The notes beneath the pieces were generated by a model. It searched no databases and had not been told where the DNA came from. It was given only the letters and a program-made list of their open reading frames with translations. Below, in pieces: positions 17,029-43,104 of a DNA stretch of 64,000 nt. Location of the stretch: assembly GCA_001296005.1 (NCBI GenBank), contig LJHR01000027.1, positions 62,001-126,000 on the forward strand, given 5' to 3'. Position 1 is the first letter of the stretch, and each line of letters begins with the position of its first letter. The DNA comes from an alpha proteobacterium AAP38. GTDB lineage: Bacteria; Pseudomonadota; Alphaproteobacteria; Azospirillales; Azospirillaceae. Made by a program: the position numbers and the translations under genes.

Positions 17029-17511
17029 TTATAAAAGCTTGAAGTAATGGATGCGGTTGGCGCCGGGGATTTTTTCGGCAACCCCGACAAAGACATGTTT
17101 GGCCAGCCAGTCATAGGGGCCTGCCGGCACGTCGAATTTCGGGCAGACGCGCATGTAATATTCCGACGGGTCCACCGGTTCGTTGCGGGACATGCGTTCC
17201 GCCACCTCAGGCGTATAGGCCCAGCGATAGCCACGGTTCTGGAGATAGATGATCGTGCCATCATCCAGTTCCAGCAGATAGCGGGCATCGAAATCGATCA
17301 CACCGTCGGGGCGCAGCAGCGGCCAGTCGCCGCCGCTCATCGGTACGACGCGTCCCTTGATGCCCGGCCCCTCAACCGTGCCGTCGGCGGCATAGATGGC
17401 CGCACGCGTCGCCCCCATCGTGGTGGGACGCAGCCAATGGGGCTTGGTCAGCGTGATGCCGATGGAGAAGGCGAATTCAAAGCGCGGGGCGAAGGGATGG
17501 GGTTCGGTCAT
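17029..17511 (-). CDS. DUF3237 domain protein (first copy)
   Basis: 160 residues matching the DUF3237 pattern: an N-terminal PRFEFAFSIGITL strand, a G-P-x-IKGRVVPMSGGDWPLLRPDGVIDFDARYLLELDDG core, a Y-I/M-R-V-CPKFDVPAGPYDWLAKHVFVG segment, and a final aromatic strand. The fold is thought to be a small beta-barrel; activity is unestablished. GGAAAC stands just before the ATG. It lies 49 nt after the CocE-type hydrolase gene in the same operon. A second DUF3237 gene (19383) begins the divergent operon, so paired paralogs flank one control region with palindromic operators. Confidence 0.85.
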   Translation of the reverse strand: MTEPHPFAPRFEFAFSIGITLTKPHWLRPTTMGATRAAIYAADGTVEGPGIKGRVVPMSGGDWPLLRPDGVIDFDARYLLELDDGTIIYLQNRGYRWAYTPEVAERMSRNEPVDPSEYYMRVCPKFDVPAGPYDWLAKHVFVGVAEKIPGANRIHYFKLL

Positions 17512-19291: not shown

Positions 19292-19303
19292 TTGATTAAT
19301 CAT
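19292..19303. promoter_or_regulatory. Imperfect TTGA-N4-TCAA site before the CocE gene
   Basis: TTGATTAATCAT departs from the eight perfect sites by its last base. It contains the palindrome TGATTAATCA and lies 67 nt upstream of the CocE-type hydrolase ATG. A second, perfect site is 57 nt away. Confidence 0.45.
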
Positions 19304-19348: not shown

Positions 19349-19360
19349 TTGATTTCTCAA
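19349..19360. promoter_or_regulatory. MarR-type operator candidate before DUF3237 operon
   Basis: TTGATTTCTCAA, extended to ATTGATTTCTCAAT (19348-19361). It ends 22 nt before the DUF3237 ATG, where a bound repressor would block initiation. Confidence 0.7.
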
Positions 19361-19382
19361 TGAATCATGGGAGGACAAGATC

Positions 19383-19871
19383 ATGAATGACGATCATCCG
19401 CTGGCCCTGCGGCACGAGCATGTGTTCGATATCCGCATCAATTTCGACCGTCGCTGGATGACGGGGCCGATCCATCCGGGCGGTCCCAATCATGGCTATA
19501 CCTCGGTCGGAGAGGGATGCACCGTTAGCGGCCCGCGCCTGAACGGCAAACTGGTCGATCACAGCGGCGCCGATTGGCCCGCGGTCCGCGCCGACGGCGT
19601 GGTCGAACTGAACGCGCATTACATGATCCAGGCCGATGACGGGGCGCTGATCTATATCCGCAACCTGGGTTATGTGCATGGCCCCCTGCAACGGCCCGGC
19701 TACCCGCCGCTGACATCCTACTTCCGCTGCACCCCCTATTTCCGCGCACCCGATGGGCCGCATGAATGGCTGAACCGCACCGTGATCGTCGGCGTGGGCC
19801 AGCGCCGGCCAAAGGTGAAGCCGGAGGATGATCCCGACCATTCGCTGTTCCGTTATTACGCGGTGCTGTGA
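19383..19871 (+). CDS. DUF3237 domain protein (second copy)
   Basis: 162 residues, clearly paralogous to the 17029-17511 product. Shared strings include an N-terminal HVFDIRINFDRRWM, GPRLNGKLVDHSGADWPAVRADGVVELNAHYMIQADDG, an IYIRNLGY strand and PYFRAPDGPHEWLNRTVIVGVG. The two copies differ in loops and C-terminus, so they may act on different stereoisomers or as a hetero-oligomer; this is an inference. GGGAGGA lies 7 nt before the ATG. It is the first gene of an operon with two NTF2-like proteins and an acyl-CoA dehydrogenase, preceded by a palindromic operator. Confidence 0.88.
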   Translation: MNDDHPLALRHEHVFDIRINFDRRWMTGPIHPGGPNHGYTSVGEGCTVSGPRLNGKLVDHSGADWPAVRADGVVELNAHYMIQADDGALIYIRNLGYVHGPLQRPGYPPLTSYFRCTPYFRAPDGPHEWLNRTVIVGVGQRRPKVKPEDDPDHSLFRYYAVL

Positions 19872-19893
19872 CCCGTGCGGCGGAGCAGCGGCC

Positions 19894-20262
19894 ATGAATG
19901 ATTTCAGCCAGCGCCAGCGGTTCGACTTCTATGTCGACGCCCTTAACCGTGACGATATGGAGGGTGTGGCCGCCTGCTATGCCCCTGACCTGCACATGAC
20001 CGACGATCAGGTGGATCTACGGTCGGGCGAAGCGGCGATGGCATTCCATCGCCGCTTCGCATCCCGTCTGGAATTGTTGAACTATGTTGACCGTCCGGGC
20101 CGGATCGCAGCGGAAATCCGTTGGACCCTGCGCGCGCGGGAGCATCCGACCGATCCCCTGGCGACGGGGGAGACGCGGACCTGGGCCAGTTTCACCATGA
20201 TCGACATCGCCGACGGTCGCTTCAAGCGTATCCGTTCGGCCCCGTGCAGGGCCGCCCCATGA
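19894..20262 (+). CDS. NTF2-like protein A (SnoaL-type)
   Basis: 122 residues from the ATG at 19894 (MNDFSQRQ); a longer reading frame starting inside the previous gene is unlikely. It has the cone-shaped NTF2/SnoaL pattern: RFDFYVDALNRDDMEGVAACYAPDLHMTDD at the N-terminus and a terminal RTWASFTMIDIADGRFKRIRS strand. The fold hosts isomerases, dehydratases and cyclases as well as non-catalytic proteins. No specific activity can be assigned. Its stop overlaps the next NTF2-like start by 4 nt, which suggests a heteromer or sequential steps. Confidence 0.8.
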   Translation: MNDFSQRQRFDFYVDALNRDDMEGVAACYAPDLHMTDDQVDLRSGEAAMAFHRRFASRLELLNYVDRPGRIAAEIRWTLRAREHPTDPLATGETRTWASFTMIDIADGRFKRIRSAPCRAAP

Positions 20263-20690
20263 CACAGCCATCCACAAGCCCAGCCGATGCTGCCACTGCC
20301 TTCGCCCGCTATATCGCCGCCTTTAACGCGGGTGATTTTGAAACGGCCTGTTCCTACTATGCCGACGATATCCGCCTGACCATTGGCAATGGCCGTGAAT
20401 TGCGGGGGCGGTCGGAAATTGTCAGCTTCTATACCGGTGTGCGCAGCGTCACCCGGCGTACCATCACGGTTCTGGATTGCTTTGCCAGTGAGACCTTGCT
20501 GGCCGCCGAACTGGAATCCGAGTTCCTGGCGGTGACTGATGTGCCGGACTTTACCTCCGGACCGATGCGCCAGGGCGACCGGATGTACATCAACAGCTTT
20601 GCTTTCTACGATATCGACCAGGGCCGGTTCAGCCGTATCCGTGCGACCGTGTTCCGGCGTGTCTGGAAGCGGCACGCAGATCGTATCTGA
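20259..20690 (+). CDS. NTF2-like protein B (SnoaL-type)
   Basis: 143 residues starting at the ATG overlapping the previous stop (ATGA at 20259). The N-terminal FARYIAAFNAGDFETACSYY and the final INSFAFYDIDQGRFSRIRATVFR show the NTF2-like fold. The GRSEIVSFYTGVR segment is typical of polyketide-cyclase-like members. The paired organisation with the preceding NTF2-like gene resembles two-subunit dehydratase/isomerase arrangements, but a function is not readable. It probably works on the product of the DUF3237 or dehydrogenase steps. Confidence 0.8.
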   Translation: MTQPSTSPADAATAFARYIAAFNAGDFETACSYYADDIRLTIGNGRELRGRSEIVSFYTGVRSVTRRTITVLDCFASETLLAAELESEFLAVTDVPDFTSGPMRQGDRMYINSFAFYDIDQGRFSRIRATVFRRVWKRHADRI

Positions 20691-20733
20691 ACGCCGGCGC
20701 AAAGCACTGGAACCCTATCCTGGAAGGGAAAGA

Positions 20734-22458
20734 ATGATGGATTTCCGGATCGCGCAGCAGGACATGCTGTTCGCTCTGCGGGTCGCAGGCGCGCCGGCGG
20801 AGGATCAAGCCTTGCTGTGCGATCTGCTTCCCCCGGTGGCCCGGCTGGCGGAAACGGAACTGGGTCCGCTTGATCCCGTCGGGGACCGGATCGGTGCTGC
20901 CTTTGCCGATGGAACGGTGACGATGCCACCGGGCTTCGTGGCTTTCTATCGCCAATGGGTCGAAGGCGGCTGGAACCTTGTCGATGTTCCGGAACGATGG
21001 GGCGGTCTTGGCCTTCCATTGTCGGTTGCCGCGCCCTTGATGGAGACCTGGACATCGGCCTGCATGGCGTTCGGGTTGGCGCCTGTGCTGACCCAGGGCG
21101 CCATGGAGGTGCTGCTTACCCATGGCGATGAGGCCTTGCAGGCCGCCTGGATACCATCGCTGACGGCGGGTACCTGCATGGCCACCATGGCCCTGACGGA
21201 GCCGATGGCCGGATCGGACCTGAACCTGATCCGCACGCGGGCGGAACGGGCCGGTGATGGCCGCTACCGCCTGTTCGGACAGAAGATGTTCATCACCTAT
21301 GGCGACCATGATCTGACCGACAATATCGCGCATCTGGTGCTGGCGCGCCTGCCCGATGGGGCGCCCGGCAGCAGGGGGCTTTCGCTGTTCCTGGTTCCCA
21401 AATGGCTGCCGGATGCGGCAGGCGACCTGCGGCAACGCAATGATGTCCATTGCCTGGGCATCGAACATAAGATGGGCCTGCACGCGTCACCCACCTGTAC
21501 CATGGGCTTTGGGGAGCATGGGGGTGCCGTCGGCTGGCTGATCGGTCGGGAGCATCAGGGGCTTTCCTGCATGTTCACCATGATGAACCGCGCCCGCCTT
21601 GCCACCGGCCTGCAGGGTGTGGCGGTGGCGGCGCGCGCCACGCAGGCCGCCGAAACCTACGCACGGCAACGGGTTCAGGGCAGTGCAAGCCGTGGCGGTG
21701 CGCCGGCCCCGATCCTGGCCCACCCGGATGTGCGCCGCATGCTGACCGATATGCGCGCCCGGACCACGGCCATCCGGCTGATCGCCTACAGCGCTGCGGT
21801 CGCCATCGACCGCTCACATAATGCCGGCGATGCCGACCAGCGTCAGGCCGCGCTTGACCGCGCATCGCTGCTGACGCCCATCGTGAAGGCGTTTTGCAGC
21901 GATACGGCCATCGATATCGCCTCCACCTGCATCCAGGTGCATGGCGGTGCCGGCTATGTGGAGGAGACGGGCGTGGCCCGGCACCTTCGCGATGTTCGCA
22001 TCACCGCCATCTATGAGGGGACGAACGGCATCCAGGCCATCGACCTTGTCCAGCGCAAGATCGTGCAGGCCGGTGGATCGGCCATCCGGGCCCTGCTGGC
22101 GGAACTGCGCATGGAGGCAGGCGCGGCGACCGCCATAGATGAACCTGCCCTGCGCGATTGCGCGCCGCTGCTGACCGATGCGCTGGATGCCATTGCGGGC
22201 ACGGTCGACTGGCTGCTGGAAAAGCAACGGACGGATGCCGACCGGCTGGCCGGTGCCACGCCTTTCCTGGACATGCTGGGCCGGACGTTGGGGGCGGCCC
22301 TGTTGCTGCGGGGGGCCATGATGAATCCGACCCCGGAAACGCCCATTGATATAAACTGGCTTGCCCGCCATTTCTGCTGGACATATCTGGCCCCTGTCCC
22401 GGCCATTGCCCGGCGGGTCCGTCAGGGTGCGGCGCTGCTGCCGCCTGTATCCGCATAG
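20734..22458 (+). CDS. Acyl-CoA dehydrogenase, long (DmdC-like) subfamily
   Basis: 574 residues from ATG 20734, preceded by GGAAGGGAAAGA. It has the flavin-binding MATMALTEPMAGSDL motif, the FITYGDHD substrate-region loop and the catalytic IYEGTNGIQAIDL string, where the Glu acts as base in this long subfamily. About 200 residues longer than classical acyl-CoA dehydrogenases, it resembles the 3-methylmercaptopropionyl-CoA dehydrogenase (DmdC) group, whose members also desaturate aryl-propanoyl-CoA-type substrates. In a cluster with stilbene and ring-decarboxylating enzymes, side-chain oxidation of a phenylpropanoid-CoA is plausible. A terminator-like hairpin follows at 22484. Confidence 0.85.
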   Translation: MMDFRIAQQDMLFALRVAGAPAEDQALLCDLLPPVARLAETELGPLDPVGDRIGAAFADGTVTMPPGFVAFYRQWVEGGWNLVDVPERWGGLGLPLSVAAPLMETWTSACMAFGLAPVLTQGAMEVLLTHGDEALQAAWIPSLTAGTCMATMALTEPMAGSDLNLIRTRAERAGDGRYRLFGQKMFITYGDHDLTDNIAHLVLARLPDGAPGSRGLSLFLVPKWLPDAAGDLRQRNDVHCLGIEHKMGLHASPTCTMGFGEHGGAVGWLIGREHQGLSCMFTMMNRARLATGLQGVAVAARATQAAETYARQRVQGSASRGGAPAPILAHPDVRRMLTDMRARTTAIRLIAYSAAVAIDRSHNAGDADQRQAALDRASLLTPIVKAFCSDTAIDIASTCIQVHGGAGYVEETGVARHLRDVRITAIYEGTNGIQAIDLVQRKIVQAGGSAIRALLAELRMEAGAATAIDEPALRDCAPLLTDALDAIAGTVDWLLEKQRTDADRLAGATPFLDMLGRTLGAALLLRGAMMNPTPETPIDINWLARHFCWTYLAPVPAIARRVRQGAALLPPVSA

Positions 22459-22483
22459 GCACCGTCTTTTCCGCCATCGCCGA

Positions 22484-22515
22484 TGTCCCCTATAAGGGGG
22501 ACAGATGTTTTTCTT
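22484..22515 (+). terminator. Rho-independent-like terminator after the acyl-CoA dehydrogenase gene
   Basis: TGTCCCC (22484-22490) pairs with GGGGACA (22497-22503), followed by GATGTTTTTCTT. It separates the DUF3237-NTF2-dehydrogenase genes from the FAD monooxygenase group, perhaps allowing partial read-through. Confidence 0.65.
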
Positions 22516-22579
22516 CCCCATCCGCATAGTTGGCCCATCGAACCGGGGAAACACCCGGCGCCAAAATCGGGAGGGGGAC

Positions 22580-24181
22580 GTGAGCGGATTGTCACCCACG
22601 GGCTATGACCTGCCCATCTATGATTATGAAACGCCACCGGAACTGTCGGGAACGGGCCGGGGCCGGTATCCCGTGGTCATCGTCGGTGCCGGTCTAGCCG
22701 GCCTTACGCTGGCCTGTGATCTTGCCAGCCGGGGCGTTTCGGCCATTATCCTGGACGAGGATGACACGGTGGGCGTGCGCGGCGCGTCCAGCCGGGGCAT
22801 CTGCTACGCCCAGAAAAGCCTGGAGATTTTTGACCGGCTGGGCATCTACCCGCGCATCCGCGACAAGGGTGTCACCTGGTCCGTCGGCAAGGTGCTGCGC
22901 GGCCAGGACGCGCTGTACCGGTTCGATCTGGCCGTGGGCAGCCGGTCGGCGCAGCCGCCCTTCATCAATATCCAGCAATTCTATGTCGAATGGTTCCTGG
23001 TGGATCGTATCCGGGAATTGGGCCGCACGGATTTGCGCTGGAAGAACCGGGTGACCGGCATCCGACAGGATGAAGATGGCGCTGTGCTGACCGTGGAAAC
23101 GCCCGACGGTTCCTACAGTCTGCATGCCGACTGGGTGATCGACGCCTCGGGCCATGCCAGCATCGTCCGGCATGCCCTGGGTCTGCATACCAAGGGGGAG
23201 CTGGGGGAGGATCGCTGGTGCATCTCCGACGTGCGGTTCCGCAAGGACCTGCCGGTGGAACGCTGGACCTGGGTCGAAGCGCCGTTCAATGAGAACCGGG
23301 CCGTGTGGCAGCATCTGATGGCCGATGGTGTCTGGCGCATGGATTACCAGATGCTGCCCAATACCGATCCGCATGAGGCCAGCCGGCCGGAGGTGGCCGC
23401 AGCCCGGCTGCGTGACCAGTTGGGACCCGATGTGGAATTCGATCTGGTCTGGGTTGGTGCCTATGCCTACCGAACGCAGCTGATGGATGATTTCCGGCAT
23501 GGACGGGTATTCTTCATCGGCGATGCCGCCCATGTGAAAAGCCCATTCGGGGCGCGCGGTGGCAATAGCGGCATTCAGGATGCGGAAAACCTGGCCTGGA
23601 AGCTGACCCTGGTCCTGAACGGTCAGGCACCGCAGGGACTGCTGGACAGCTACAACGCCGAACGCCGCCCGGCGGCGGTGGAGAATATTGCCGTCACCCG
23701 AAGGTCGGGCCGGTTCCTGGCCCCGCGCACGAAGGTTGAGCGGATGTTCCGTACCGCCGTGATGGATCTGGCGGTCCATCATCCCTTCGCCCGGCTGCTG
23801 CTGAATACCGGGCGGATGTGCGTGCCCCATCATTATGGGCCCTCCCCCCTGACGACGGGCGATGCAGGACAGGCCATGCCCAATCTCGCCCTGGATAGCC
23901 GGTCGCTGGGCGGGATGCTGCGGGGGCAGGGGGCGGGCTTCCTGGCCCTCTGGTGTCCGCGTGATGGGGAGGACGGGTTGGGCCGTGCCCTGTCGCACCT
24001 GTCGCATGAGGGCTGGCCCCTGCATGTCCAGGGTGTTGGTGCCGATGACCGGCGGGTGCTGGGCATGGCGCCGGGGGAGGTGATGCTGATCCGCCCCGAC
24101 CTGCACCTTGCCGCCCGTCTGAACGACGCGGATGTGGATCAGGTGCGCCGGGCCCTGGCGCGGGCCATTTGCCGGATATGA
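22580..24181 (+). CDS. FAD-dependent aromatic-ring hydroxylase family monooxygenase
   Basis: About 533 residues from the GTG at 22580, chosen because GGGAGGGG stands 3-9 nt upstream; the earlier in-frame ATG at 22505 has no ribosome site. The N-terminal FAD fold reads VVIVGAGLAGLTLACDLASRG. The second FAD motif is FIGDAAHVKSPFGARGGNSGIQDAENLAWKL. The C-terminal thioredoxin-like tail is present. It resembles MhpA-type 3-(3-hydroxyphenyl)propanoate hydroxylases and similar group A flavoproteins. The following DUF2783 and MBL-fold genes commonly accompany this subtype. Expected reaction: ortho-hydroxylation of a phenolic substrate with NAD(P)H and O2. Confidence 0.88.
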   Translation: MSGLSPTGYDLPIYDYETPPELSGTGRGRYPVVIVGAGLAGLTLACDLASRGVSAIILDEDDTVGVRGASSRGICYAQKSLEIFDRLGIYPRIRDKGVTWSVGKVLRGQDALYRFDLAVGSRSAQPPFINIQQFYVEWFLVDRIRELGRTDLRWKNRVTGIRQDEDGAVLTVETPDGSYSLHADWVIDASGHASIVRHALGLHTKGELGEDRWCISDVRFRKDLPVERWTWVEAPFNENRAVWQHLMADGVWRMDYQMLPNTDPHEASRPEVAAARLRDQLGPDVEFDLVWVGAYAYRTQLMDDFRHGRVFFIGDAAHVKSPFGARGGNSGIQDAENLAWKLTLVLNGQAPQGLLDSYNAERRPAAVENIAVTRRSGRFLAPRTKVERMFRTAVMDLAVHHPFARLLLNTGRMCVPHHYGPSPLTTGDAGQAMPNLALDSRSLGGMLRGQGAGFLALWCPRDGEDGLGRALSHLSHEGWPLHVQGVGADDRRVLGMAPGEVMLIRPDLHLAARLNDADVDQVRRALARAICRI

Positions 24182-24201
24182 AACAGGGAGGAAACGATAA
24201 C

Positions 24202-24408
24202 ATGCGCACCACCCCCAACATTCCCGACCCAGATGCCTTTTACGAGGCCTTGCTGGACACGCATGCCGGGCTGCCGGCGACGGAAAGCCACGCGCTGAAC
24301 GCGCGCCTTGTCCTGCTGCTGGCCAATCAGATCGGTGACCAGGGCGTGTTGCTGTCCTGTCTTGAAACGGCGCGGGATACCGCCGCCCACCGGAGGAATG
24401 ATCCGTGA
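24202..24408 (+). CDS. DUF2783 small protein
   Basis: 68 residues starting at ATG 24202 with AGGAGG about 10 nt upstream. It reads PDPDAFYEALLDTHAGL then SHALNARLVLLLANQIGD, the standard DUF2783 pattern. This short helical family is found almost exclusively between a group A flavin monooxygenase and an MBL-fold hydrolase, exactly as here. It may be an accessory or assembly subunit; no activity is known to me. Its stop overlaps the next ATG by 4 nt. Confidence 0.85.
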   Translation: MRTTPNIPDPDAFYEALLDTHAGLPATESHALNARLVLLLANQIGDQGVLLSCLETARDTAAHRRNDP

Positions 24409-25355
24409 CCAAATCCTTTGCGTCCGCCGCCGACAATATGCAGCAGACCCCGCAACTGGTCGAACTGGCCAGCGGCGTCTATGGCTTTATCAGCGATTTC
24501 GACCCGAATTGCGGCTTCGTGGTCGGCCCGGACTATGTCGTTGCCATTGACACGCGGGCCACGCCCGCCCTGGCGCGGGAAATGCTGGCCGCCATCCGCA
24601 CCGTGACGGACAAGCCGGTACGTTATGTGTTCCTGTCCCATTACCACGCGGTGCGGGTCATGGGGGCGTCGGCGTTCGGCGGCGCGGCCCTGATCGCCAG
24701 TCAGGCCACGCTGGACCTGGTTAGCGAACGCGGGCCGGATGATTTTGAATCCGAGGTGCGGCGTTTCCCCCGCCTGTTCCGGGGCGTGGAGGAAATTCCC
24801 GGCCTGACCTGGCCCGATTTGGTTTTCGATCAGGGGCTGACCCTGCGTCTGGGGGATCGGGACCTGCATTTCCGGCATCTGGGGCGCGGGCATACGGCGG
24901 GGGATTCCATCTGCTGGATACCGGATTGCGGGGTGCTGTTCTCCGGCGATCTGGTGGAAAACCGCTGCGGCGTCTATGCTGGCGACGGCTATGTTGCCGA
25001 CTGGATCGACACCCTGGCGAGGCTGCGCGACCTGCCGGCCACGACCATGGTGCCGGGCCGGGGGGCCGCCCTGCGGTCGCGCAGTGCGGTGGAGGATGCC
25101 ATCGCGGCCACCCAGGGCTTCCTCACCATTCTGCGCGATGTGGTCGCCAATGCCCACGCGCGGGGAGCGGATCTGAAAGCCTGTTTCCAGTCGGCGGAAA
25201 AGGTCATGACCCCACTTTATGGCGACTGGCCGGTCTTTGCCCATGTGCTGCCCTTCGATGTGGCGCGCATGCTGGAACAGTTGCAGGGCGGGGAGCATCC
25301 CACCCCCTGGACCGCAGAGCGTGATCAGGCCCTTTGGGCCTTGCTGCGGGGCTGA
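24405..25355 (+). CDS. MBL-fold metallo-hydrolase with altered HxHxDH motif
   Basis: 316 residues of the metallo-beta-lactamase superfamily. The first metal motif reads SHYHAVRVMG: the two His of HxH remain but the Asp-His pair of HxHxDH is replaced by Val-Arg. The later ligands are present (GHTAGDS and SGDLVENR). This variant recurs in MBL proteins of aromatic-catabolic operons, sometimes labelled SoxH-like. Retention of only part of the site suggests a mononuclear metal centre or a non-hydrolytic role. It is translationally coupled to DUF2783 and probably acts on the monooxygenase product. Confidence 0.85.
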   Translation: MTKSFASAADNMQQTPQLVELASGVYGFISDFDPNCGFVVGPDYVVAIDTRATPALAREMLAAIRTVTDKPVRYVFLSHYHAVRVMGASAFGGAALIASQATLDLVSERGPDDFESEVRRFPRLFRGVEEIPGLTWPDLVFDQGLTLRLGDRDLHFRHLGRGHTAGDSICWIPDCGVLFSGDLVENRCGVYAGDGYVADWIDTLARLRDLPATTMVPGRGAALRSRSAVEDAIAATQGFLTILRDVVANAHARGADLKACFQSAEKVMTPLYGDWPVFAHVLPFDVARMLEQLQGGEHPTPWTAERDQALWALLRG

Positions 25356-25369
25356 TACGGATGCCGGGA

Positions 25370-26167
25370 TCAGACGGGGCGCATCAGGCGCGGCAGGTTA
25401 CGCAGGCAGAGCGCGAACAGTTCCGCCTGCGACGCGATGCCCAGCTTGTGATAGGCGCGCTTGCGCAGGGTGATCACCGTCGATGGGCGCACGCCCAGGT
25501 CGGCGGCGATCCCGTCCGTCTGATAGCCCAACACGATCCGGCAGCACACGGCCAGTTCCCGCGTGCTCAAGGTTTCGTCGGCCAGTTCGACCAGCCGTTC
25601 GACAAAGGGCAGGGTCCGTCCGGCATTGATGTCCGACTGCACGATGTAATGGGCGCAGTGCTGTCGCACGATGCTGGTCAGCAGGGGCGTGATGGCGGAC
25701 AGGAGATCGACCTCCGCGTCCGTGAACGTCCCGGCGCGGAGCGAGCGATAGAAGTTCAGGTAGAAGGCCATGTCCGACGTACGCCAGATATAGGACACCT
25801 TATCGACGATGCCGACGGTCGTATAGAAACGGCGCAGGTAATCCTGCATGGCCACACGGGCCGGGTCGTGCCGGCGGAAGATCACCCTGCGGCTGCTGGA
25901 TATGCGCGACAGTTCTTCGAAATTCGGGTCGAACGCGTGCAGGCCGGCGACATAGTCGCGCCCCAGCGACAGCACCGTCGCCCTGTCCTGCAGGCTGGCC
26001 CCGCCCACCTGTTTCAGCCCCGCCGCCTGCGAGTAGCAGAGGATGGTGCAATGGTCGACAGGGATCAGCCTTGCCACAGCCGCCAGCAGCGCATCGTCGA
26101 AACGAGGCCGGCCAATGGCGGCTACCGCGTCGGACAGGGCGCAAAGCCTGACTGCAATATCCGTCAT
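25370..26167 (-). CDS. LuxR-type transcriptional regulator
   Basis: 265 residues from the ATG at 26167; the longer frame adds an arginine-rich leader unlikely to be translated. The C-terminal ~65 residues carry a LuxR-type helix-turn-helix: LSTRELAVCCRIVLGYQTDGIAADLGVRPSTVITLRKRAYHKLGI. The N-terminal ~190 residues form a ligand-sensing, GAF/autoinducer-domain-like region without a motif I can name. It is convergent with the MBL gene (14-nt gap) and divergent from the alpha/beta-hydrolase at 26221 (53-nt gap), so that hydrolase gene is its likeliest target. No TTGA-N4-TCAA palindrome occurs in this gap, so control here may be separate. Confidence 0.85.
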   Translation of the reverse strand: MTDIAVRLCALSDAVAAIGRPRFDDALLAAVARLIPVDHCTILCYSQAAGLKQVGGASLQDRATVLSLGRDYVAGLHAFDPNFEELSRISSSRRVIFRRHDPARVAMQDYLRRFYTTVGIVDKVSYIWRTSDMAFYLNFYRSLRAGTFTDAEVDLLSAITPLLTSIVRQHCAHYIVQSDINAGRTLPFVERLVELADETLSTRELAVCCRIVLGYQTDGIAADLGVRPSTVITLRKRAYHKLGIASQAELFALCLRNLPRLMRPV

Positions 26168-26220
26168 CGCCGGGCCTCCCGGTGCGGCAGAACCATAAAC
26201 CGATAAAGCCAGAGGGGGAG

Positions 26221-27342
26221 ATGATGACACTGGAACTGGTGGTGATCGATGTGCGGCCCGGTGCGGCGATGGAAAGCCAGTCGGGGTTGCAGATGCTGCG
26301 CCCCCGTATCTACGGCGCCTTCGCCCGGCCACCGGGTGCGCGCACCGCCGCCCTGATCATGCATCCGACCAGCAATTTCATGGGCCATTACCTGTTGGCC
26401 CCGCTTGCGGCGCGCGGCATCGCCACCCTGGCGCTGAACTCCCGCTATATGGGCAATGATGCGGTACTGCTGCTGGAACGGGTGATCCAGGATATGGGGG
26501 CGGGCGTCGCCTGGCTGCGCCGGCAGGGGTTCGACCGCGTGGTCCTGATCGGCAATTCCGGCGGTGCGGCCCTGTCGGCCTTTTATCAGGCACAGGCGGA
26601 GAAGCTCACCATCACCGATACGCCGGCTGGCGACCCGGTCGATTTGCGGCCAGATGACCTGCCGCCGGCCAACGGCATCGTGCTGGCCGCCGCCCATCTG
26701 GGCCGGTCGCGCCTGATGGATACATGGATCGATCCTGCCGTGGTTGACGAGCATGATCCGATGCCGTCCTGTGCGCAGCTGGACATGTTCAACCCGGATA
26801 ATGGCCCGCCTTACAGCGCCGCCTTTCTGGAGCGCTACCGCACCGCGCAGCGCGCCCGCAATGCCGGGATCGAGGCCTGGGCGCGTGACCGGTTGAGCCA
26901 GTTGCGCGCACGGCCCGATGGCATGCGTGACGAAGCCTTCGTCATCCACCGCACCCTGGCCGATCCGCGCTGCCTGGACCCGTCCATCGACCCTAATGAC
27001 CGCATTCCCGGCACCACCGTCTGGGGGCCGCCGCATGCGCAGAACTACGCCGCCAACAGCATGGGGCGCTACAGCTCGTTGACGGGATATCTCAGCCAAT
27101 GGTCGCCCAGCAGCCGGGGCGACGGCCCCGCCAATCTGGCGCGCACCCGCGTGCCGGTGCTGCTGCTGGAATATACCGCCGATCCGTCGGTCTTCCCGTC
27201 TGACAATGCCATTTGGGCGGAGGCCGCGAAGGGCAGGGTGCAGCGCCATGCCATCAAGGGCGGCAACCATTATCTCAGCGGCCAGCCGCATCTGGTGGAT
27301 GAGGTGGCCGACCATATCGCCGGCTGGTGCAACCGGCTTTGA
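26221..27342 (+). CDS. Alpha/beta-hydrolase family protein
   Basis: About 373 residues from the first ATG of an ATGATG pair, with GAGGGGGAG directly before. The fold markers are LIMHPTSNFMGHYLLAPLAARG (strand plus oxyanion region), the nucleophile elbow LIGNSGGAAL (Ser in GNSGG) and a C-terminal GGNHYL with the catalytic His. A PVLLLEYTADPSVFPSDN string carries the acid residue. The family hydrolyses esters, lactones or C-C bonds; the substrate is unknown. It is followed at 15 nt by a VOC protein, so the two form one short operon divergent from a LuxR gene. Confidence 0.8.
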   Translation: MMTLELVVIDVRPGAAMESQSGLQMLRPRIYGAFARPPGARTAALIMHPTSNFMGHYLLAPLAARGIATLALNSRYMGNDAVLLLERVIQDMGAGVAWLRRQGFDRVVLIGNSGGAALSAFYQAQAEKLTITDTPAGDPVDLRPDDLPPANGIVLAAAHLGRSRLMDTWIDPAVVDEHDPMPSCAQLDMFNPDNGPPYSAAFLERYRTAQRARNAGIEAWARDRLSQLRARPDGMRDEAFVIHRTLADPRCLDPSIDPNDRIPGTTVWGPPHAQNYAANSMGRYSSLTGYLSQWSPSSRGDGPANLARTRVPVLLLEYTADPSVFPSDNAIWAEAAKGRVQRHAIKGGNHYLSGQPHLVDEVADHIAGWCNRL

Positions 27343-27357
27343 CACAGGAGACAGCGC

Positions 27358-27906
27358 ATGCAGCCCCCCGTTCCCATCCAAGGCCTTCACCATTTCGCCT
27401 GGCGTTGCCGCGATGCGGAGGAGACGCGGCATTTCTATGAGGATTTGCTGGGCCTGCCGCTGGTGCATATCGTGCGCAGCGACCATGTGCCCAGCACGGG
27501 CGAATATTGCCCCTATGTTCATATCTTCTTTCAGATGCGCGACGGCTCCTACATCGCCTTTTTTGATCTGGGGGACGATGTGGCGGCGGCGCCGTCGCCC
27601 AACACGCCGGCCTGGGTCAACCATATCGCCCTGCGTGTCGGCACGGTGGCGGAAGTGGAACAGGCCATGGCCCGCCTGAAGGCGGCGGGGGTGGAGGTTG
27701 TCGGCATCACCGATCATCACATCATCCAGTCCCTCTATTTCTTCGATCCCAACGGCCTGCGTGTCGAACTGACGGCACAGAGCGTGTCGGACGAATACAT
27801 GCAGGCGGCGGTCAAGACCGCCCATGGCGAACTGGCCCGCTGGGTCATCGAAAAGGCAACCCTATCCCACTACCCGCGCAACGAAGCGGGCCAGGACGGG
27901 ACCTAG
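27358..27906 (+). CDS. VOC (glyoxalase/extradiol dioxygenase fold) protein
   Basis: 182 residues with the paired beta-alpha-beta-beta-beta modules of the vicinal oxygen chelate fold. Likely metal ligands are His in GLHHFAWR near residue 12, His in VNHIALRV near residue 88 and Glu in GLRVELTA near residue 138, the usual 2-His-1-Glu arrangement. FFDPNGLRVEL is a strong VOC signature. CAGGAGA precedes the ATG at 6-7 nt. A dioxygenase or glyoxalase/lyase role fits. The last 45 nt overlap the 3' end of the convergent hydrolase gene at 27862. Confidence 0.8.
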   Translation: MQPPVPIQGLHHFAWRCRDAEETRHFYEDLLGLPLVHIVRSDHVPSTGEYCPYVHIFFQMRDGSYIAFFDLGDDVAAAPSPNTPAWVNHIALRVGTVAEVEQAMARLKAAGVEVVGITDHHIIQSLYFFDPNGLRVELTAQSVSDEYMQAAVKTAHGELARWVIEKATLSHYPRNEAGQDGT

Positions 27907-28731
27907 CGCATCGACGGGTGAATGGATCTGGTGGACGGGGCTGATATGGTTATGCCCCTCCAGCCAATGGAAATCCGGCCACTTGCCCGTGGCAGCCACC
28001 CGGCGGGAGACCAGCAGGGCCGCCTGACGCTGGAAATCCGCCGGGTCATTCTCCGATACGGTGAACAGGCAGGGCACGCTGGTCTCCACCAGACCGTCGA
28101 TGCTGGATTGGGCAGCGAACCGGGTCGGGTCCGTCCCGAAATAGGCGTCCTGATAGGGATTGCGGGCCGCACTGGGCACATCATAGAGGCCCGACAGCAT
28201 GATGGCCCCCGCGATGGATGTGGCCGCCATTTCCGCAAAGCCCTGCCCACCGACATAGGAGGCGACATGTGCCGCGCCTGCCGATTGCCCCATCAGGATG
28301 ATGCGGTCCGGATCGCCGCCATGGTTTGCGGCCTCCGCCTTCAGCCAGTCCACCAGCCGCGCCACATCCTGCGCGCCCGCCGGCCAGGGATGGGCAGGGG
28401 CAAGCCGGTAGGTGGCGGTGACGCCCAGCCAGCCCTGCGCCGCCGCCCAGGCGCCGACATTGTTGTAGAAAGGCGCACCGGGCGCCCCCTTGTCACCGCC
28501 GATAAAACCACCGCCATGCAGGAAGACCAGCACCGGGCGCCTTGCGTCACCACCGCCGCCGAACAGGTCCAGCCGGTGACGCGCGTCCGGGCCATAGGAC
28601 AGGTCGCGTTGAACCAGGGCTTCATCGACAGGGGGCTGTAAGGGGGCGAACAGCGCCATGGAACCCTGGATTTGTGCCACCGAGAACGCTGTGCCCAGGG
28701 CGCGGATACGGTCATGGAAGGAGGTTTGCAT
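27862..28731 (-). CDS. Alpha/beta-hydrolase (HSL/carboxylesterase-like)
   Basis: 289 residues from the ATG at 28731, which shares one base with the TGA of the preceding SnoaL-like gene (TGATG coupling). It has the hormone-sensitive-lipase-type HGGGFIGG oxyanion motif in LVFLHGGGFIGGD, the nucleophile GQSAGAAHV, an acid in SENDPADF and His in EGHNHISPVH. These enzymes cleave short-chain or aromatic esters. It is the second gene of a minus-strand pair preceded by two palindromic operators. The 3' end overlaps the VOC gene by 45 nt on the other strand. Confidence 0.87.
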   Translation of the reverse strand: MQTSFHDRIRALGTAFSVAQIQGSMALFAPLQPPVDEALVQRDLSYGPDARHRLDLFGGGGDARRPVLVFLHGGGFIGGDKGAPGAPFYNNVGAWAAAQGWLGVTATYRLAPAHPWPAGAQDVARLVDWLKAEAANHGGDPDRIILMGQSAGAAHVASYVGGQGFAEMAATSIAGAIMLSGLYDVPSAARNPYQDAYFGTDPTRFAAQSSIDGLVETSVPCLFTVSENDPADFQRQAALLVSRRVAATGKWPDFHWLEGHNHISPVHQIHSPVDALGPVLARFVARVVG

Positions 28732-29285
28732 CACCAGGGGTCCTGCGACTGCACGCTGAAAGGCCGGCAATCGACGGGGGCCGGGGCATTGAAAGGGCGC
28801 GGGACCATCGTCCGTTCGCCCTTCCAGGGCACCTGATCCGCTTTTGTCCAGGCATTGACGTGCAGGCGATGGAATTTCCAGCGGCCATCGCGTTTCACCA
28901 GCCGGTCATCGCGCGTGCCGATGCCGAAGATGAAATTGGTGCCGTAATCGGCATTGAACTGGATGATCTGGAAGAAGCAGCGTACGCGCGCCCCTTCCGG
29001 ACGCGGGTCCATGATGAAATGGTTGAACAGATGCTGCCGCCCGAACCACCAATGCTGCCGGTCGTACCACAGGCCGCGCAGATGGGCGCGGATGGCGTCG
29101 CGGCCCTGGGCCTTGCCCTGCCAGAGGTGATCGAACTCCCCATCCTCGGCGAAAGTGTCCAGCACCTGCTCCTCGTCGGCCAGATCCAGGCCCCAGGCAT
29201 AGCGTGCGAAAAGCTCGGTGATTTCGGCGCGATCCTCAGCAGGCATCAAAGCCGGGACACCGCCCGGCCAGCAGACCTCGACCAT
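28731..29285 (-). CDS. SnoaL/NTF2-like protein C
   Basis: 184 residues with AEDRAEITELFARYAWGLDLADEEQVLDTFAEDGEFDH at the N-terminus, the classical SnoaL-like bile-acid-7-alpha-dehydratase/ring-hydroxylating-subunit pattern, and an RDDRLVKRDGRWKFHRLHVN strand. Asp and His residues in these segments could be catalytic, as in scytalone-dehydratase-like members. AGGAGAG stands 7 nt before the ATG. Two perfect TTGA-N4-TCAA sites lie 79-114 nt upstream. It is coupled to the downstream esterase-like hydrolase. Confidence 0.82.
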   Translation of the reverse strand: MVEVCWPGGVPALMPAEDRAEITELFARYAWGLDLADEEQVLDTFAEDGEFDHLWQGKAQGRDAIRAHLRGLWYDRQHWWFGRQHLFNHFIMDPRPEGARVRCFFQIIQFNADYGTNFIFGIGTRDDRLVKRDGRWKFHRLHVNAWTKADQVPWKGERTMVPRPFNAPAPVDCRPFSVQSQDPW

Positions 29286-29363
29286 CGATATCTCTCCTGG
29301 AAACGGCCCGCGCGCGCATCCAAGGCGCCGGGCGGAACAGAAGCCAGGGGTATCATCGATTTA

Positions 29364-29375
29364 TTGATAGTTCAA
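29364..29375. promoter_or_regulatory. MarR-type operator candidate, SnoaL operon, proximal
   Basis: TTGATAGTTCAA within the perfect 14-bp palindrome arms ATTGA/TCAAT (29363-29376), 79 nt upstream of the SnoaL-like gene ATG. Confidence 0.7.
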
Positions 29376-29387
29376 TGAACTTTTATA

Positions 29388-29399
29388 TTGAGGGATCAA
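29388..29399. promoter_or_regulatory. MarR-type operator candidate, SnoaL operon, distal
   Basis: TTGAGGGATCAA with outer A and T (29387-29400). Its centre is 24 bp from the proximal site, close to two helical turns, which would favour side-by-side dimers. Confidence 0.7.
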
Positions 29400-29429
29400 T
29401 GATGTTTGAAATTCCCACTTCGATCCATC

Positions 29430-29987
29430 TCACGTCTTGACCAGATGAGCCAGCCGTTCGCCGATGCGGGACAGAAGCTCATCCAGCACTACGCGTTCCT
29501 CCGGCGATAGATCGACCAGCAGCGATTCATGGAAGGCAACACGTTCCTTCAGCGTCGCCTTGTACAGCTTCTGTCCGGTCTTGGTCAGATAGAGGATGGG
29601 CGTGCGCAGGTCGTTGGGATTCTCCCGCCGCCGCGTATATCCCCGTTCCTCCAGCGAGCGGGCGGCCCGGCTGACCTCTGCGCGGTCAACCCAGGCAAGA
29701 TCGGCAACCTGTCCCACGGTGCCACCGTCGGGCATGGTACCCAGCCGCGCCAGGACACGCCATTCCGCGTATGTCAGTTCCCCCCGCTCCGCCAACCGCC
29801 TGATCGTCAGACGGTCGATCACCTTGGCGATCAAGGTCACCCGGAAGGTGGAGAACTGAAGATTGGAGACATTCCATCCCGGCAGCTCAAGCTTGGCGCG
29901 GGCCGGCACTGCGTTTTCCGCGCCGGGCACCTCGCCCTCCACTTCGCCGCTGGCCGGGCTCGCGTCCGATCTGGCCTGCCGTTTCAT
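29430..29987 (-). CDS. MarR family transcriptional regulator
   Basis: 185 residues. After a variable, acidic N-terminal extension of about 40 residues comes a winged helix-turn-helix: ELTYAEWRVLARLGTMPDGGTVGQVADLAWVDRAEVSRAARSLEERGYTRRREN, then a wing and LTKTGQKLY. MarR proteins bind short palindromes as dimers and release them on binding an aromatic acid or acyl-CoA. Eight perfect TTGA-N4-TCAA palindromes lie in control regions from 19 to 34 kb, one of them 57 nt before this gene's own ATG. It is therefore the best candidate for the shared repressor and for autoregulation. The ligand is unknown. Confidence 0.9.
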   Translation of the reverse strand: MKRQARSDASPASGEVEGEVPGAENAVPARAKLELPGWNVSNLQFSTFRVTLIAKVIDRLTIRRLAERGELTYAEWRVLARLGTMPDGGTVGQVADLAWVDRAEVSRAARSLEERGYTRRRENPNDLRTPILYLTKTGQKLYKATLKERVAFHESLLVDLSPEERVVLDELLSRIGERLAHLVKT

Positions 29988-30043
29988 ATGTCTTCTTTCA
30001 TCCCGATCAAGTGTCAGCGATAGCTGATCTGATCCATTGTTAG

Positions 30044-30055
30044 TTGATCATTCAA
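30044..30055. promoter_or_regulatory. MarR-type operator candidate before the MarR gene
   Basis: TTGATCATTCAA, 57 nt upstream of the MarR ATG. The position suggests autoregulation of the regulator gene. Confidence 0.7.
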
Positions 30056-30163
30056 TGTTATTCCAGCGTTCTGGCAGCGCGCCAGCGCCATTGGACTGCA
30101 ACGCCGACATTTTGATGCTACATGCTCAAGAGGGCTGGCGCGAAACCGGGACAGGCGATATTA

Positions 30164-30175
30164 TTGATTCCTCAA
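30164..30175. promoter_or_regulatory. MarR-type operator candidate before the AAHS transporter gene
   Basis: TTGATTCCTCAA, 111 nt upstream of the transporter ATG at 30287. It may govern transporter transcription from the divergent MarR/transporter region. The rest of this 299-nt region shows no other feature I recognise. Confidence 0.65.
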
Positions 30176-30286
30176 AGACTGGTCGGAGCGGGCGGTCCCT
30201 GGACCGCGCGTATACAGGCCGGCATCCCCATCATAAAACCTTGCCGGATCAAGGTCCGGCGCCCTTGAGGGAGGGAGCGCAGCTTC

Positions 30287-31633
30287 ATGTCGGCGTTCGA
30301 CGTCCAAAACTTCATCGACCAGCGCAAGATCGGGTTTCCGCAATGCCTTGTGCTGGCGCTGACCACGCTGGCCATGTTCATCGACGGGTTCGACATCTTC
30401 ATGGTGGGCAAGATCGCCCCCGCCATCGCCGGAAATTTCGGTGTCACGCCTGCCAGCATGACCATCGTTTTCGTCCTGCAACAGACCGGGCTGGCCATCG
30501 GCGCCTTCGTCATCAGTCCGTTGTCGGACTATTACGGGCGCAAGCGGATGCTGATCATCGCCTTCATCATTTTCGGCGTGCTGACGACGATCACCGTCTT
30601 CTCCACGTCGCTGATGATGGTGGCCATCCTGCGCGGCCTGTCGGGCCTGTTCCTGGCCAGCGTCGTGCCCACCACCATGGCGCTGCTGGCGGAATTCACG
30701 CCCAAGCGCTGGCGCTCGCTGTTCATCGCCATCGGTATCGCGGGCTACAGCGCCGGCAGTGCGGCCGGTGCCGCCATTGCTCTGCTGGTCCCGCATTATG
30801 GCTGGGAAAGCGGCTTCTGGGTGGGCGGGCTGATGCCGCTGGTCATGGTGCCGGTTCTGTTGCTGTTCCTGCCGGAATCGCTGACCTACCGCGTGGGCCG
30901 TGACCCCAGCCATCCCGCCATCGCCCGCACCATCCGCTGGATGGACCGCAGCCTCGTCCTGACAGGGGAGGAGCGGTTCGTGACGGCGGAAACCGGCGGC
31001 AAGAAGGTGAAGGCCCATGTCATCGACGTGTTCCGCGATGGGCGTGCGCGCACCAGCGCCATCCTGTTTGCGGCCTGTGTCCTGTCCATGGGCAATATCG
31101 CGCTGCTGGCCGCGTGGCTGCCCACCTTCTTCCAGGAAATGGGCGGCATCACGATCCAGCGCTTTGCCATCGTTTCCATGACGGGCTTCATCGGCGGCAT
31201 GATCGGTACCGTCACCATCGGTTTCCTGATGGACCGGATCGGGGCCACGCGTCTGATCCCGCTCTATTATATCGGGATTGCGGCGACGCTGATCCTGATG
31301 GGCCATGTGCCATTTGGCACCGTGGGCTTCGTGCTGCTGCTGGTCTGCTGGAGCTTCTGTCAGTCGGGCGGACAGGCGGGGCTGAACATGCTGATGACCC
31401 AGATCTATCCGACGGCCCTGCGCAGCACGGGCGTGGGCTGGGCCGGTGGTGCGGGCCGTATCGGCGGGATCATCGCCCCGCTGTTCGGCGGCATGGCGCT
31501 GGCATCCTCCTTCACGCTGGAGGTGACGCTGGCCATGATCGCCATCCCGCCGGTTGCGGTCGCCCTGCTGGTATTACTGCTGAAGCCGATCCGCCGCGAC
31601 GGCGCGCCGGCCGCAAAGCCCGCCGTGGCGTGA
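30287..31633 (+). CDS. MFS aromatic acid:H+ symporter (AAHS family)
   Basis: 448 residues, about twelve transmembrane helices. The first helix carries FIDGFDIFMVGKIAPAIA, the AAHS hallmark (D-G-F/Y-D) shared with PcaK, BenK, VanK-type carriers. A SPLSDYYGRKRMLI motif follows helix 2, and the usual long central cytoplasmic loop lies near residues 190-240. It would import a lignin-derived aromatic acid. GGGAGGGAG stands upstream of the ATG. A perfect TTGA-N4-TCAA site lies 111 nt before the start. It is convergent with the LSD-like gene across a strong two-way terminator. Confidence 0.9.
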   Translation: MSAFDVQNFIDQRKIGFPQCLVLALTTLAMFIDGFDIFMVGKIAPAIAGNFGVTPASMTIVFVLQQTGLAIGAFVISPLSDYYGRKRMLIIAFIIFGVLTTITVFSTSLMMVAILRGLSGLFLASVVPTTMALLAEFTPKRWRSLFIAIGIAGYSAGSAAGAAIALLVPHYGWESGFWVGGLMPLVMVPVLLLFLPESLTYRVGRDPSHPAIARTIRWMDRSLVLTGEERFVTAETGGKKVKAHVIDVFRDGRARTSAILFAACVLSMGNIALLAAWLPTFFQEMGGITIQRFAIVSMTGFIGGMIGTVTIGFLMDRIGATRLIPLYYIGIAATLILMGHVPFGTVGFVLLLVCWSFCQSGGQAGLNMLMTQIYPTALRSTGVGWAGGAGRIGGIIAPLFGGMALASSFTLEVTLAMIAIPPVAVALLVLLLKPIRRDGAPAAKPAVA

Positions 31634-31637
31634 CATT

Positions 31638-31671
31638 CCCCGGTCTGGCGGTATCCGCCGCCAGACCGGGG
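31638..31671. terminator. Bidirectional terminator
   Basis: CCCCGGTCTGGCGG (31638-31651) and CCGCCAGACCGGGG (31658-31671) make a perfect 14-bp stem with a 6-nt loop. It separates the convergent AAHS transporter and LSD-like genes. Confidence 0.85.
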
Positions 31672-31678
31672 TAAACCT

Positions 31679-33100
31679 TCAACGGCTGCGCAACCGTTCC
31701 CCCGGCACCCAGGTGCCATGGAAGGTGGTCCGTACCCGCATCGGCATGTACAGCCGGGCCACCGGCCCCGCCGCCACATCCTGTGCATCCAGGATCGCCA
31801 GTTCGCTGAGGTTGGTTTCCAGCCGGTTGACGATGACCAGCAGCCAGCCATCCCCCTCCGGTGCGCCTGGATAACGGGCCACGAACTGTGGTTCATGGAC
31901 GGAGGCACCGGGACCGGGATGCCAGCGCGTGACCTCCCCGCTGCGCAGGTCGATGCGGCCGATGGCCGATGACCCGTCCGGGCCACGCCCCACGATCAGG
32001 AAGCCGTGGCGGCATTCATGTCCCTGGTAGCGGTCATCGGTGCGCGGCATCTCACCCGGTGTGTTGATGATGCGCCGCCGCGCGAACCCGTCCCCGTTGC
32101 TGGTCAGATCGAAGCTGAGGCGCGACAGGAAGGGTGGGCAGCCTTCGACATGCTGTCCATCAGGCGTGGGGAAAAACGGGAAACAGTTGCCATCATAGTA
32201 GCAGGTATCCAGATGGACTGTGCTGCCGTCTTCCCAGGCGTTCATCATGTGGCTGAGGCAGCCGGCGGGGCCCCGGAACCAGCGTATATCCTCCTTCGTG
32301 CCGCCCCGCTTCACTAGGGCCACCACGACCTGTTCATCGGGATGCCATTCATAGAAGGTGCCGCCGCGTTTCAGGTTTTCCACATCCGTGATCAGCGGCA
32401 TGAAGGGGAAGATGGCCCAATTTGGCGTCACTGCGAAATCATGGACCAGGGAGGCATAGGGCATCTCAAACCAGATTTCGTCCAGGATACGGCCCTGGTC
32501 ATCGATATCGTAGAAGACGATATCCCGCGTGCCGTCGCCGCGCGCCTGATAGGAATAAGTTAGCAGGCGGCCATCGTCGGGATACCATTTCGGATGCGCC
32601 GTCAGGGATGTGGCCCGAACCTTGCCGCCGAAATCATAGCGTCCGATAGGGTCCAGCGTGTCGCGGTCCACCTCGAACGGCAGGTCATCCTCCTTCAGCA
32701 CCAGAAGGCGTCCATCATGGAAGATCATATTCGTGTTGGCCGTGCCGCCGCTGACATCCTTGACCGACGGGTCATCGGTGAAGCGGTTGCGATAGAGGCC
32801 GAACAGCGATCGTCCAGCCTTGGCCTGCGCCATGTAACGTTCATTGCGGACCCAGCGGCTGCGGTAGGAAACAACGCCGTCCTTGATGCGGAACATGTGC
32901 GCCATGCCCTCGCCATCGATGAAGATGTCGGTGCCCAGCATGGGGGGATATTGCCGGTCGGGCCCGGCGCGGTACCAGGTGCCGTCCAGGCCGGCGGGTA
33001 CCGCGCCTTCGATCAGTTCCAGCCCCTCGACGGTTGATTCAAGGCGCAGCGGCTTTGCCCAGCCGTGATAGGCCGGGATATCGGGAAAACGGACTTCCAT
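31679..33100 (-). CDS. Carotenoid-oxygenase family, lignostilbene-dioxygenase-like paralog
   Basis: 473 residues from the ATG at 33100 (GGGGAG at a 6-nt gap); the upstream in-frame extension is unlikely. A seven-bladed propeller non-heme iron dioxygenase. All four iron-ligand His are present: His169 (TAHP), His220 (LVHDF), His284 (LSHMMNAW) and His461 (FHGTWVP). Tyr103 (GLYRN) and Lys136 (VLKED) match the LSD residues Tyr101 and Lys134 that hold the 4-hydroxyl of lignostilbene. The LSD Phe59 position is Ile61 here, so substrate preference may differ. The expected reaction is O2-dependent cleavage of a stilbene-type double bond to two aldehydes. A palindromic operator lies 126 nt upstream. Confidence 0.85.
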   Translation of the reverse strand: MEVRFPDIPAYHGWAKPLRLESTVEGLELIEGAVPAGLDGTWYRAGPDRQYPPMLGTDIFIDGEGMAHMFRIKDGVVSYRSRWVRNERYMAQAKAGRSLFGLYRNRFTDDPSVKDVSGGTANTNMIFHDGRLLVLKEDDLPFEVDRDTLDPIGRYDFGGKVRATSLTAHPKWYPDDGRLLTYSYQARGDGTRDIVFYDIDDQGRILDEIWFEMPYASLVHDFAVTPNWAIFPFMPLITDVENLKRGGTFYEWHPDEQVVVALVKRGGTKEDIRWFRGPAGCLSHMMNAWEDGSTVHLDTCYYDGNCFPFFPTPDGQHVEGCPPFLSRLSFDLTSNGDGFARRRIINTPGEMPRTDDRYQGHECRHGFLIVGRGPDGSSAIGRIDLRSGEVTRWHPGPGASVHEPQFVARYPGAPEGDGWLLVIVNRLETNLSELAILDAQDVAAGPVARLYMPMRVRTTFHGTWVPGERLRSR

Positions 33101-33225
33101 TGTTTTCTCCCCTGGGGGCAACCGCGGGTTCACGAGTGACCGTGATTGGTACGGGATTGCGACCAGCAGTAGCCCAGGGATATCCCCGGACACAACGCGA
33201 CTCGCGGCCCCAATGTGATTGGTCA

Positions 33226-33237
33226 TTGAATGATCAA
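33226..33237. promoter_or_regulatory. MarR-type operator candidate, LSD-like paralog
   Basis: TTGAATGATCAA, with flanking A and T (33225-33238), 126 nt upstream of the LSD-like gene ATG at 33100. Confidence 0.7.
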
Positions 33238-33582
33238 TATTATTGTCCCGCTGTCAATGCGCAAAGCGCGGAATTTAAGACCATCGGTGGCAAAGCCGGA
33301 AAGGCCGGACATAACTGGCAGCGTTTCTAAGCTGGAAGCCGAACTTCCACGGTCCCAATGTCCGGAGAGCCTTTAATTTAGTGGCAGGCAAAGGCGGGAT
33401 CGCATACCATTGGATGTGATGACGCGATGGGGAATTCGATAAAATATCAAGTTAATACAATGTGTTGATTGCGGCGGTTCAATCCACCTGTACCCGCAGC
33501 CCATCCTGAAAAGCCAGCCCCACACAGAACCATGCAGGTGTGAGCAATTTACCCGATCAACCACTTGCCAAGGCCTACATCA

Positions 33583-33594
33583 TTGAGCTATCAA
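33583..33594. promoter_or_regulatory. MarR-type operator candidate, TonB operon, distal
   Basis: TTGAGCTATCAA with flanking A and T (33582-33595), 82 nt before the TonB receptor ATG. Confidence 0.7.
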
Positions 33595-33602
33595 TAATCT
33601 CA

Positions 33603-33614
33603 TTGATAAATCAA
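33603..33614. promoter_or_regulatory. MarR-type operator candidate, TonB operon, proximal
   Basis: TTGATAAATCAA, 62 nt before the TonB receptor ATG. Its centre is 20 bp from the distal site, close to two helical turns. Confidence 0.7.
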
Positions 33615-40928: not shown

Positions 40929-40942
40929 AGACAGGGGTCATC

Positions 40943-43088: not shown

Positions 43089-43104
43089 AAGATCGGCCTT
43101 AATC

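Follow-up and report, generated by a model that had tools for sequence, protein, structure and literature searches.

The DNA analysed here (the window) is a stretch of 64,000 nucleotides, positions 62,001 to 126,000 of contig LJHR01000027.1 (assembly GCA_001296005.1), from the alphaproteobacterium AAP38, which belongs to the genus Niveispirillum. It contains a block of catabolic genes that includes two lignostilbene-dioxygenase-like genes (LSD1 and LSD2) and a MarR-family regulator gene (marR), and it bears eight perfect copies of the palindrome TTGA-N4-TCAA (S1 to S8) as well as a one-mismatch copy (S1b), which we consider as predicted operators of this MarR protein (Table 1). Two long plus-strand runs, DUF3237-SnoaL-SnoaL-acyl-CoA dehydrogenase-FAD monooxygenase-MBL and TonB-MFS-LSD2-aldehyde dehydrogenase (ALDH)-LigW-like, are taken as putative operons from their gene order. 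The likely start of LSD1 is placed at 33100 because the longer open reading frame (ORF) shows homology only from about residues 35-46 onwards. Searches of PDB, NCBIfam and Pfam covered selected genes rather than every ORF of the window.

Table 1. Genes and palindromic sites of the block, in window coordinates; for the sites, the strand is that of the adjoining transcription unit.
Feature	Position	Strand	Remarks
DUF3237 protein	17029..17511	-	Pfam PF11578
CocE/NonD-type hydrolase	17561..19225	-	TIGR00976 263.5 bits (cut-off 66.3)
S1b	19292..19303	-	one mismatch (TTGATTAATCAT); before CocE/NonD hydrolase-DUF3237 operon; identical in 6/6 genomes
S1	19349..19360	+	22 bp before DUF3237b start
DUF3237 protein (DUF3237b)	19383..19871	+	first gene of run to 25355
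LuxR-type regulator	25370..26332	-	inside block; no adjacent operator copy; no match in G075
Alpha/beta hydrolase	27862..28770	-	profile match
SnoaL_4 protein	28731..29285	-	profile match
S2	29364..29375	-	SnoaL_4-hydrolase operon; paired with S3, 24 bp
S3	29388..29399	-	SnoaL_4-hydrolase operon; N4 in four versions across six genomes
MarR-family regulator, 185 aa	29430..29987	-	Pfam MarR_2 39.2 bits (cut-off 27); MarR 35 bits (cut-off 24.6)
S4	30044..30055	-	56 bp before marR start
S5	30164..30175	+	AAHS transporter promoter; G069 orthologue the only imperfect copy among 48
AAHS-type MFS transporter (aromatic acid/H+ symport like)	30287..31633	+	TIGR00895 277 bits, below cut-off 418.55
LSD1, lignostilbene-dioxygenase-like	31679..33100	-	homology search
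S6	33226..33237	-	before LSD1; kept in G071 and G075, both without LSD1
S7	33583..33594	+	TonB receptor operon; paired with S8, 20 bp
S8	33603..33614	+	TonB receptor operon
TonB-dependent receptor	33676..36549	+	first gene of run TonB-MFS-LSD2-ALDH-LigW-like
Second MFS transporter	36611..37939	+	
LSD2	37977..39437	+	near lignostilbene dioxygenase equivalog; NF053778 765.8 bits, under cut-off 800
Aldehyde dehydrogenase	39486..40928	+	
LigW/LigW2-like 5-carboxyvanillate decarboxylase	40895..42028	+	PDB 4inf E 7.7e-133, 4qs5 E 3.8e-132

A rescan of the whole window returned exactly the eight perfect copies listed by the original prediction and no ninth. The chance expectation is lower than the one copy or so per 64 kb assumed there, at 0.3-0.4: dinucleotide shuffles hold 0.29 copies on average and at most 3 (n=100), and a first-order Markov model gives 0.395 per window. 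Because the pattern had been picked after the sequence was viewed, all 256 four-base half-sites were scored with spacers of 0-12, and among these 3,328 gapped palindromes TTGA-N4-TCAA ranked first (Poisson p 1.0e-8, about 3.5e-5 after Bonferroni correction). The enrichment is confined to one spacing, with eight copies at N4 and no more than two at any other spacer from 0 to 12. All eight lie wholly in intergenic DNA, in line with the control regions to which they had been ascribed, and such DNA makes up 1,809 of the 25,000 bases (7.2%) of the block under our choice of gene starts (the longest LSD1 ORF would make the first base of S6 coding). The whole 5.78-Mb genome contains 19 copies, 8 within these 14 kb, against 14 of a reversed control pattern; the motif extended by its outer bases, RTTGANNNNTCAAY, occurs 10 times, 7 in the block and 3 outside, against one copy of the control. 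The genome-wide scan that had been suggested as a check thus gives no picture of a motif general in coding DNA.

The palindrome follows the marR gene across genomes. Among the 11 Niveispirillum genomes compared, MarR is present in six, namely our own and five with orthologues at 86-97% identity, and LSD2 at 95% identity or more is found in exactly the same six. The records with orthologous contigs are those of N. irakense DSM 11586, strain SYP-B3756, two Niveispirillum metagenome-assembled genomes (MAGs) and Azospirillum sp. RU38E; a scan of genome contigs with two peptide patterns, which reach close relatives only, returned five MarR loci, none on new contigs. No orthologue was found outside the genus in a family search of 82 genomes (best match 34% in the other 76), and in a class sample of 385 genomes, with at most eight candidates scored per genome, one 36% protein among the 384 others reaches E 1e-18. 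In each of the six genomes marR is flanked by palindromes, with three to four perfect sites in every stretch of 3.4-3.6 kb taken around an orthologue; the stretches around 28 other MarR genes (4 of our own genome, 24 of relatives) contain a single one in all. In G075 the block is split, with the marR, AAHS, SnoaL_4, S15 and DUF3237 genes on contig C63 and TonB-MFS-LSD2-ALDH-LigW on C40, which puts a distance of at least 70 kb, judged by the contig ends, between marR and the TonB promoter; both parts keep their sites. Since targets unlinked to marR retain the palindrome in a genome without a match to the LuxR-type gene, the block's own MarR is by far the best candidate reader.

Comparison of the same promoters in relatives, also proposed at the outset, found 47 of 48 orthologous sites perfect, the miss being S5 in G069; most were located through exact-pattern matches at the corresponding position, and every place was counted. 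The arms vary in 1 of 64 columns, N4 in 14 of 32 and the outer flank in 53 of 112 (arms against N4, Fisher 2e-7 with columns treated as independent). Near-invariant arms around a variable centre therefore point to selection on the arms that leaves the middle freer, as expected for the half-sites of a dimer. The two tandem pairs noticed originally, at 24 and 20 bp, keep these spacings in 6/6 genomes, and the one-mismatch copy is real and equally constant. A matrix built from 34 of the relatives' 39 sites (S1 of G073 and S1 and S6-S8 of G072 left out) places the eight sites and S1b at the top of the window with scores of 22.8-31.5, S1b itself scoring 22.8; the hits below overlap sites (13.5, 8.2 and 4.2), and the best one overlapping no site reaches 3.7. 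The relatives yield a consensus close to WYATTGA-DNNH-TCAATRW, in which D excludes C and H excludes G.

The regulator itself has the features expected of its family, namely a winged-helix domain and, at the level of sequence, palindromes in its own and its target promoters. Its AlphaFold2 model is a winged helix-turn-helix (mean pLDDT 79.6) with a low-confidence N-terminal tail (residues 1-28 below 50), a predicted recognition helix at 102-114 and a wing at 118-134, and the 50 fold matches listed are all MarR-type proteins, several of them DNA-bound. It passes no NCBIfam equivalog cut-off, the best being BilQ (36 bits against 125), with Saro_0803 (NF053777) at 34.1 against 200.

We propose, with considerable confidence, that the palindromes are the operators of MarR, which would repress its own gene and six other units; the motif is very probably the predicted operator of this protein in a local autoregulated regulon that includes S1b, much as the original prediction had read it. 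A MarR dimer would bind each palindrome, which by eye overlaps or abuts a core promoter, and would thereby repress marR together with the DUF3237-FAD-monooxygenase run, CocE hydrolase-DUF3237, SnoaL_4-hydrolase, AAHS, LSD1 and TonB-MFS-LSD2-ALDH-LigW, until a pathway substrate or intermediate releases it. S1, S5 and S7, and S6 on the minus strand, cover a likely -10 region by eye, and S1b overlaps the end of a promoter-like match, TTGCAA-16-TATGAT. The divergent DUF3237b run and CocE-type hydrolase operon are separated by a gap that contains both S1 and S1b, and the marR/AAHS gap likewise contains S4 and S5. The site said to precede the regulator gene is S4, whose position very probably marks predicted autoregulation of marR, whereas S2 and S3 lie behind the 3' end of marR and S5 faces the AAHS gene. 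From this evidence we infer binding by MarR, repression rather than activation, and the ligand and substrate.

Several observations weigh against this proposal. A promoter and terminator scan found promoter-like matches in the region at chance level (4 against 4.8 expected), so the promoter overlap is a judgement by eye. The ABH1-VOC genes and the LuxR-type gene lie in the block without an operator copy; LuxR may govern the neighbouring hydrolase-VOC genes. The orthologous sites share descent and are not independent draws, and those in the matrix were picked by the exact pattern. RTTGANNNNTCAAY exceeds the reversed control outside the block of the six MarR genomes (27 against 4), and it does so without MarR too (24 against 7 over five genomes, with 0-8 copies each). 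In G072, MarR matches in two frames with an internal stop, while the sites are intact. The N-terminal part of this marR (L058:3088-3647, in a MAG) is matched by two pieces that overlap and include a stop, either a sequencing error or a real frameshift.

S6 is a further difficulty. It is kept in G071 (L055:3975-3986) and G075 (L091:13885-13896), in which a whole-genome search found no LSD1 orthologue, only LSD2, and no LSD1 remnant was found at the expected spot; mere blocking of the LSD1 promoter does not account for this. Its distance from S7 is 354 bp in G071, 352 bp in G075 and 357-364 bp in the others. Between G071 and G075 the S6-S7 spacer is identical at 179 of 336 positions and the outer flank at 33 of 72, against 17 of the 20 bp of S6, with both arms intact. 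Because S6 is thus kept between diverged flanks in two genomes without LSD1, it seems to serve a further purpose beyond LSD1, perhaps at the TonB operon, an argument that a recent separate loss of LSD1 in each genome would weaken. Tentatively, S6 might be a remote operator about 350 bp upstream of the TonB operon, which it would control, in addition to LSD1, either by looping to S7/S8 for repression or by gating a distal promoter.

Copies outside the block point to no wider reach. Eight of the 11 in our own genome were inspected with a crude ORF call (the other three are one on C32 and two on C62): five are inside called ORFs, one overlaps an ORF end and two are in intergenic DNA, next to genes that seem by eye to be unrelated; one of the five, on C7, is at the very first bases of its ORF and so may really be upstream. 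Over the six MarR genomes 27 of 68 copies of RTTGANNNNTCAAY are outside the block, against 24 over the five genomes without MarR. A genome-wide regulon was rejected on these counts; single further targets may exist.

Other explanations of the palindromes were weighed against the proposed repressor. MarR could read the sites and activate at some promoters, or the sites could mainly position it for cooperative or looped binding, as the fixed spacing of the two tandem pairs, the retention of S6 at 352-364 bp from S7 even without LSD1 and the existence of activating MarR proteins (PMC4737184) would allow; the -10 placement of S1, S5 and S7 by eye favours repression, and the closest precedents, CouR, DdvR and DesR, are described as repressors; this alternative is considered unlikely. 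A reader other than MarR, either the LuxR-type protein encoded at 25370 or one encoded elsewhere in the genome, is less probable still. The LuxR gene does occur in five of the six MarR genomes and in none of the five others, but it has no site beside it, whereas marR has flanking sites in all six. The LuxR matches in G069 and G071 are interrupted by stops, and G075, with all eight sites perfect, yields none at E <= 1e-20. LuxR as the reader was rejected on this last ground.

The arms also recall the half-sites of FNR, TTGAT and ATCAA, so that FNR/CRP-type boxes could be suspected. In an FNR box the spacer between TTGA and TCAA is six bases long, and TTGA-N6-TCAA has no copy in the window against eight with N4; FNR/CRP boxes, judged by this familiar consensus, were rejected on spacing and deserve very little credence. 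As for chance or the base composition of AT-rich intergenic DNA, the four site-bearing gaps do have 48-55% GC, below the 60-64% of the stretches around them, yet resampled intergenic segments contain 0.03 palindromes on average and at most 2 in 5,000 draws against the eight observed, and the arms are conserved across genomes, which leaves this explanation next to no probability.

Regulation by MarR as proposed here has close precedents. CouR of Rhodococcus jostii RHA1 is a MarR-type repressor of a p-hydroxycinnamate catabolic regulon with the box cATTGA..TCAATg, which shares the half-site ATTGA/TCAAT and the presence at several promoters including that of its own gene, but differs in a spacer of 5 bp rather than 4, in its ligand p-coumaroyl-CoA and in the genes controlled (PMC4737184). 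Our MarR matches a PDB chain named CouR (6c28) weakly (E 0.0049). In Sphingobium sp. SYK-6 the MarR-type regulator DdvR acts as repressor of two genes for a lignin-dimer pathway, one for a TonB-dependent receptor and one for an enzyme, and its cluster likewise combines TonB receptor, enzyme and inner-membrane transporter genes, though for a biphenyl substrate (DDVA) rather than a stilbene (PMC6874591). Saro_0803 of Novosphingobium aromaticivorans, a MarR-like regulator of the stilbene-cleaving dioxygenase gene nov1, binds the nov1 promoter at an inverted repeat overlapping the predicted -10 box and is released by resveratrol; its repeat is GCAATA-N6-TATTGC, unlike ours, and our MarR falls far below the cut-off of its family (PMC10046596). 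CouR, DdvR and Saro_0803 count as close precedents. DesR of Sphingobium sp. SYK-6 is a MarR-type repressor controlling desB, ligM and desR through similar inverted repeats found at several promoters for lignin catabolism, its own among them, but the 15-bp repeats given there, such as GTTTGTGTCACATAC, are without TTGA arms (PMC6888825).

The gene content, with LSD, ALDH, LigW-like decarboxylase and TonB receptor genes, suggests that the pathway most likely serves uptake and cleavage of a lignin-derived stilbene. Stilbenes that come from beta-5 dimers are one example, and cutting the stilbene to two aldehydes by a dioxygenase, followed by an ALDH and a 5-carboxyvanillate decarboxylase, would fit. 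Uptake and side-chain cleavage would accordingly be followed by oxidation of the aldehyde and decarboxylation of a 5-carboxyvanillate-like acid. The best PDB match of LSD2 is 6xm6 (E 1.4e-197), and its best solved relatives are dioxygenases of the carotenoid-oxygenase/LSD kind.

G074, which has no MarR orthologue, carries another cluster (L092:8692-14707) with relatives of the LSD, DUF3237 and acyl-CoA dehydrogenase genes at 37-46% identity and without a perfect palindrome; DUF3237 and LSD genes therefore occur together in more than one cluster. In G071 about 9 kb (L054:5866-14791) separate the acyl-CoA dehydrogenase and FAD-monooxygenase genes, which adjoin each other in the window. Just outside the conserved block, 13155-16363 encodes a histidine kinase with a 7TM sensor region and an adjoining sigma-54-dependent response regulator. 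Beyond its other end, 42168-48963 contains a LysR-type regulator gene and oxidative genes (ALDH, a protein of the alanine-racemase/serine-dehydratase fold and a DAO oxidase), for which tblastn found no match in the orthologous stretches compared, except for ALDH matches of 35-37% in G074.

A search of the literature on this genus returned nothing on such regulation, and one with the exact motif string gave no match, which carries little weight given how variously motifs are written in print. Systems of this kind are well known, but the support that sequence comparison lends to this one is unusually good. For what is probably a lignin-stilbene pathway of Niveispirillum it provides a sharply defined candidate pair of regulator and operator, and the operator would serve as a ready sensor part. 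Co-regulation would also put two DUF3237 genes, three SnoaL-type genes and one CocE-type hydrolase in one pathway.

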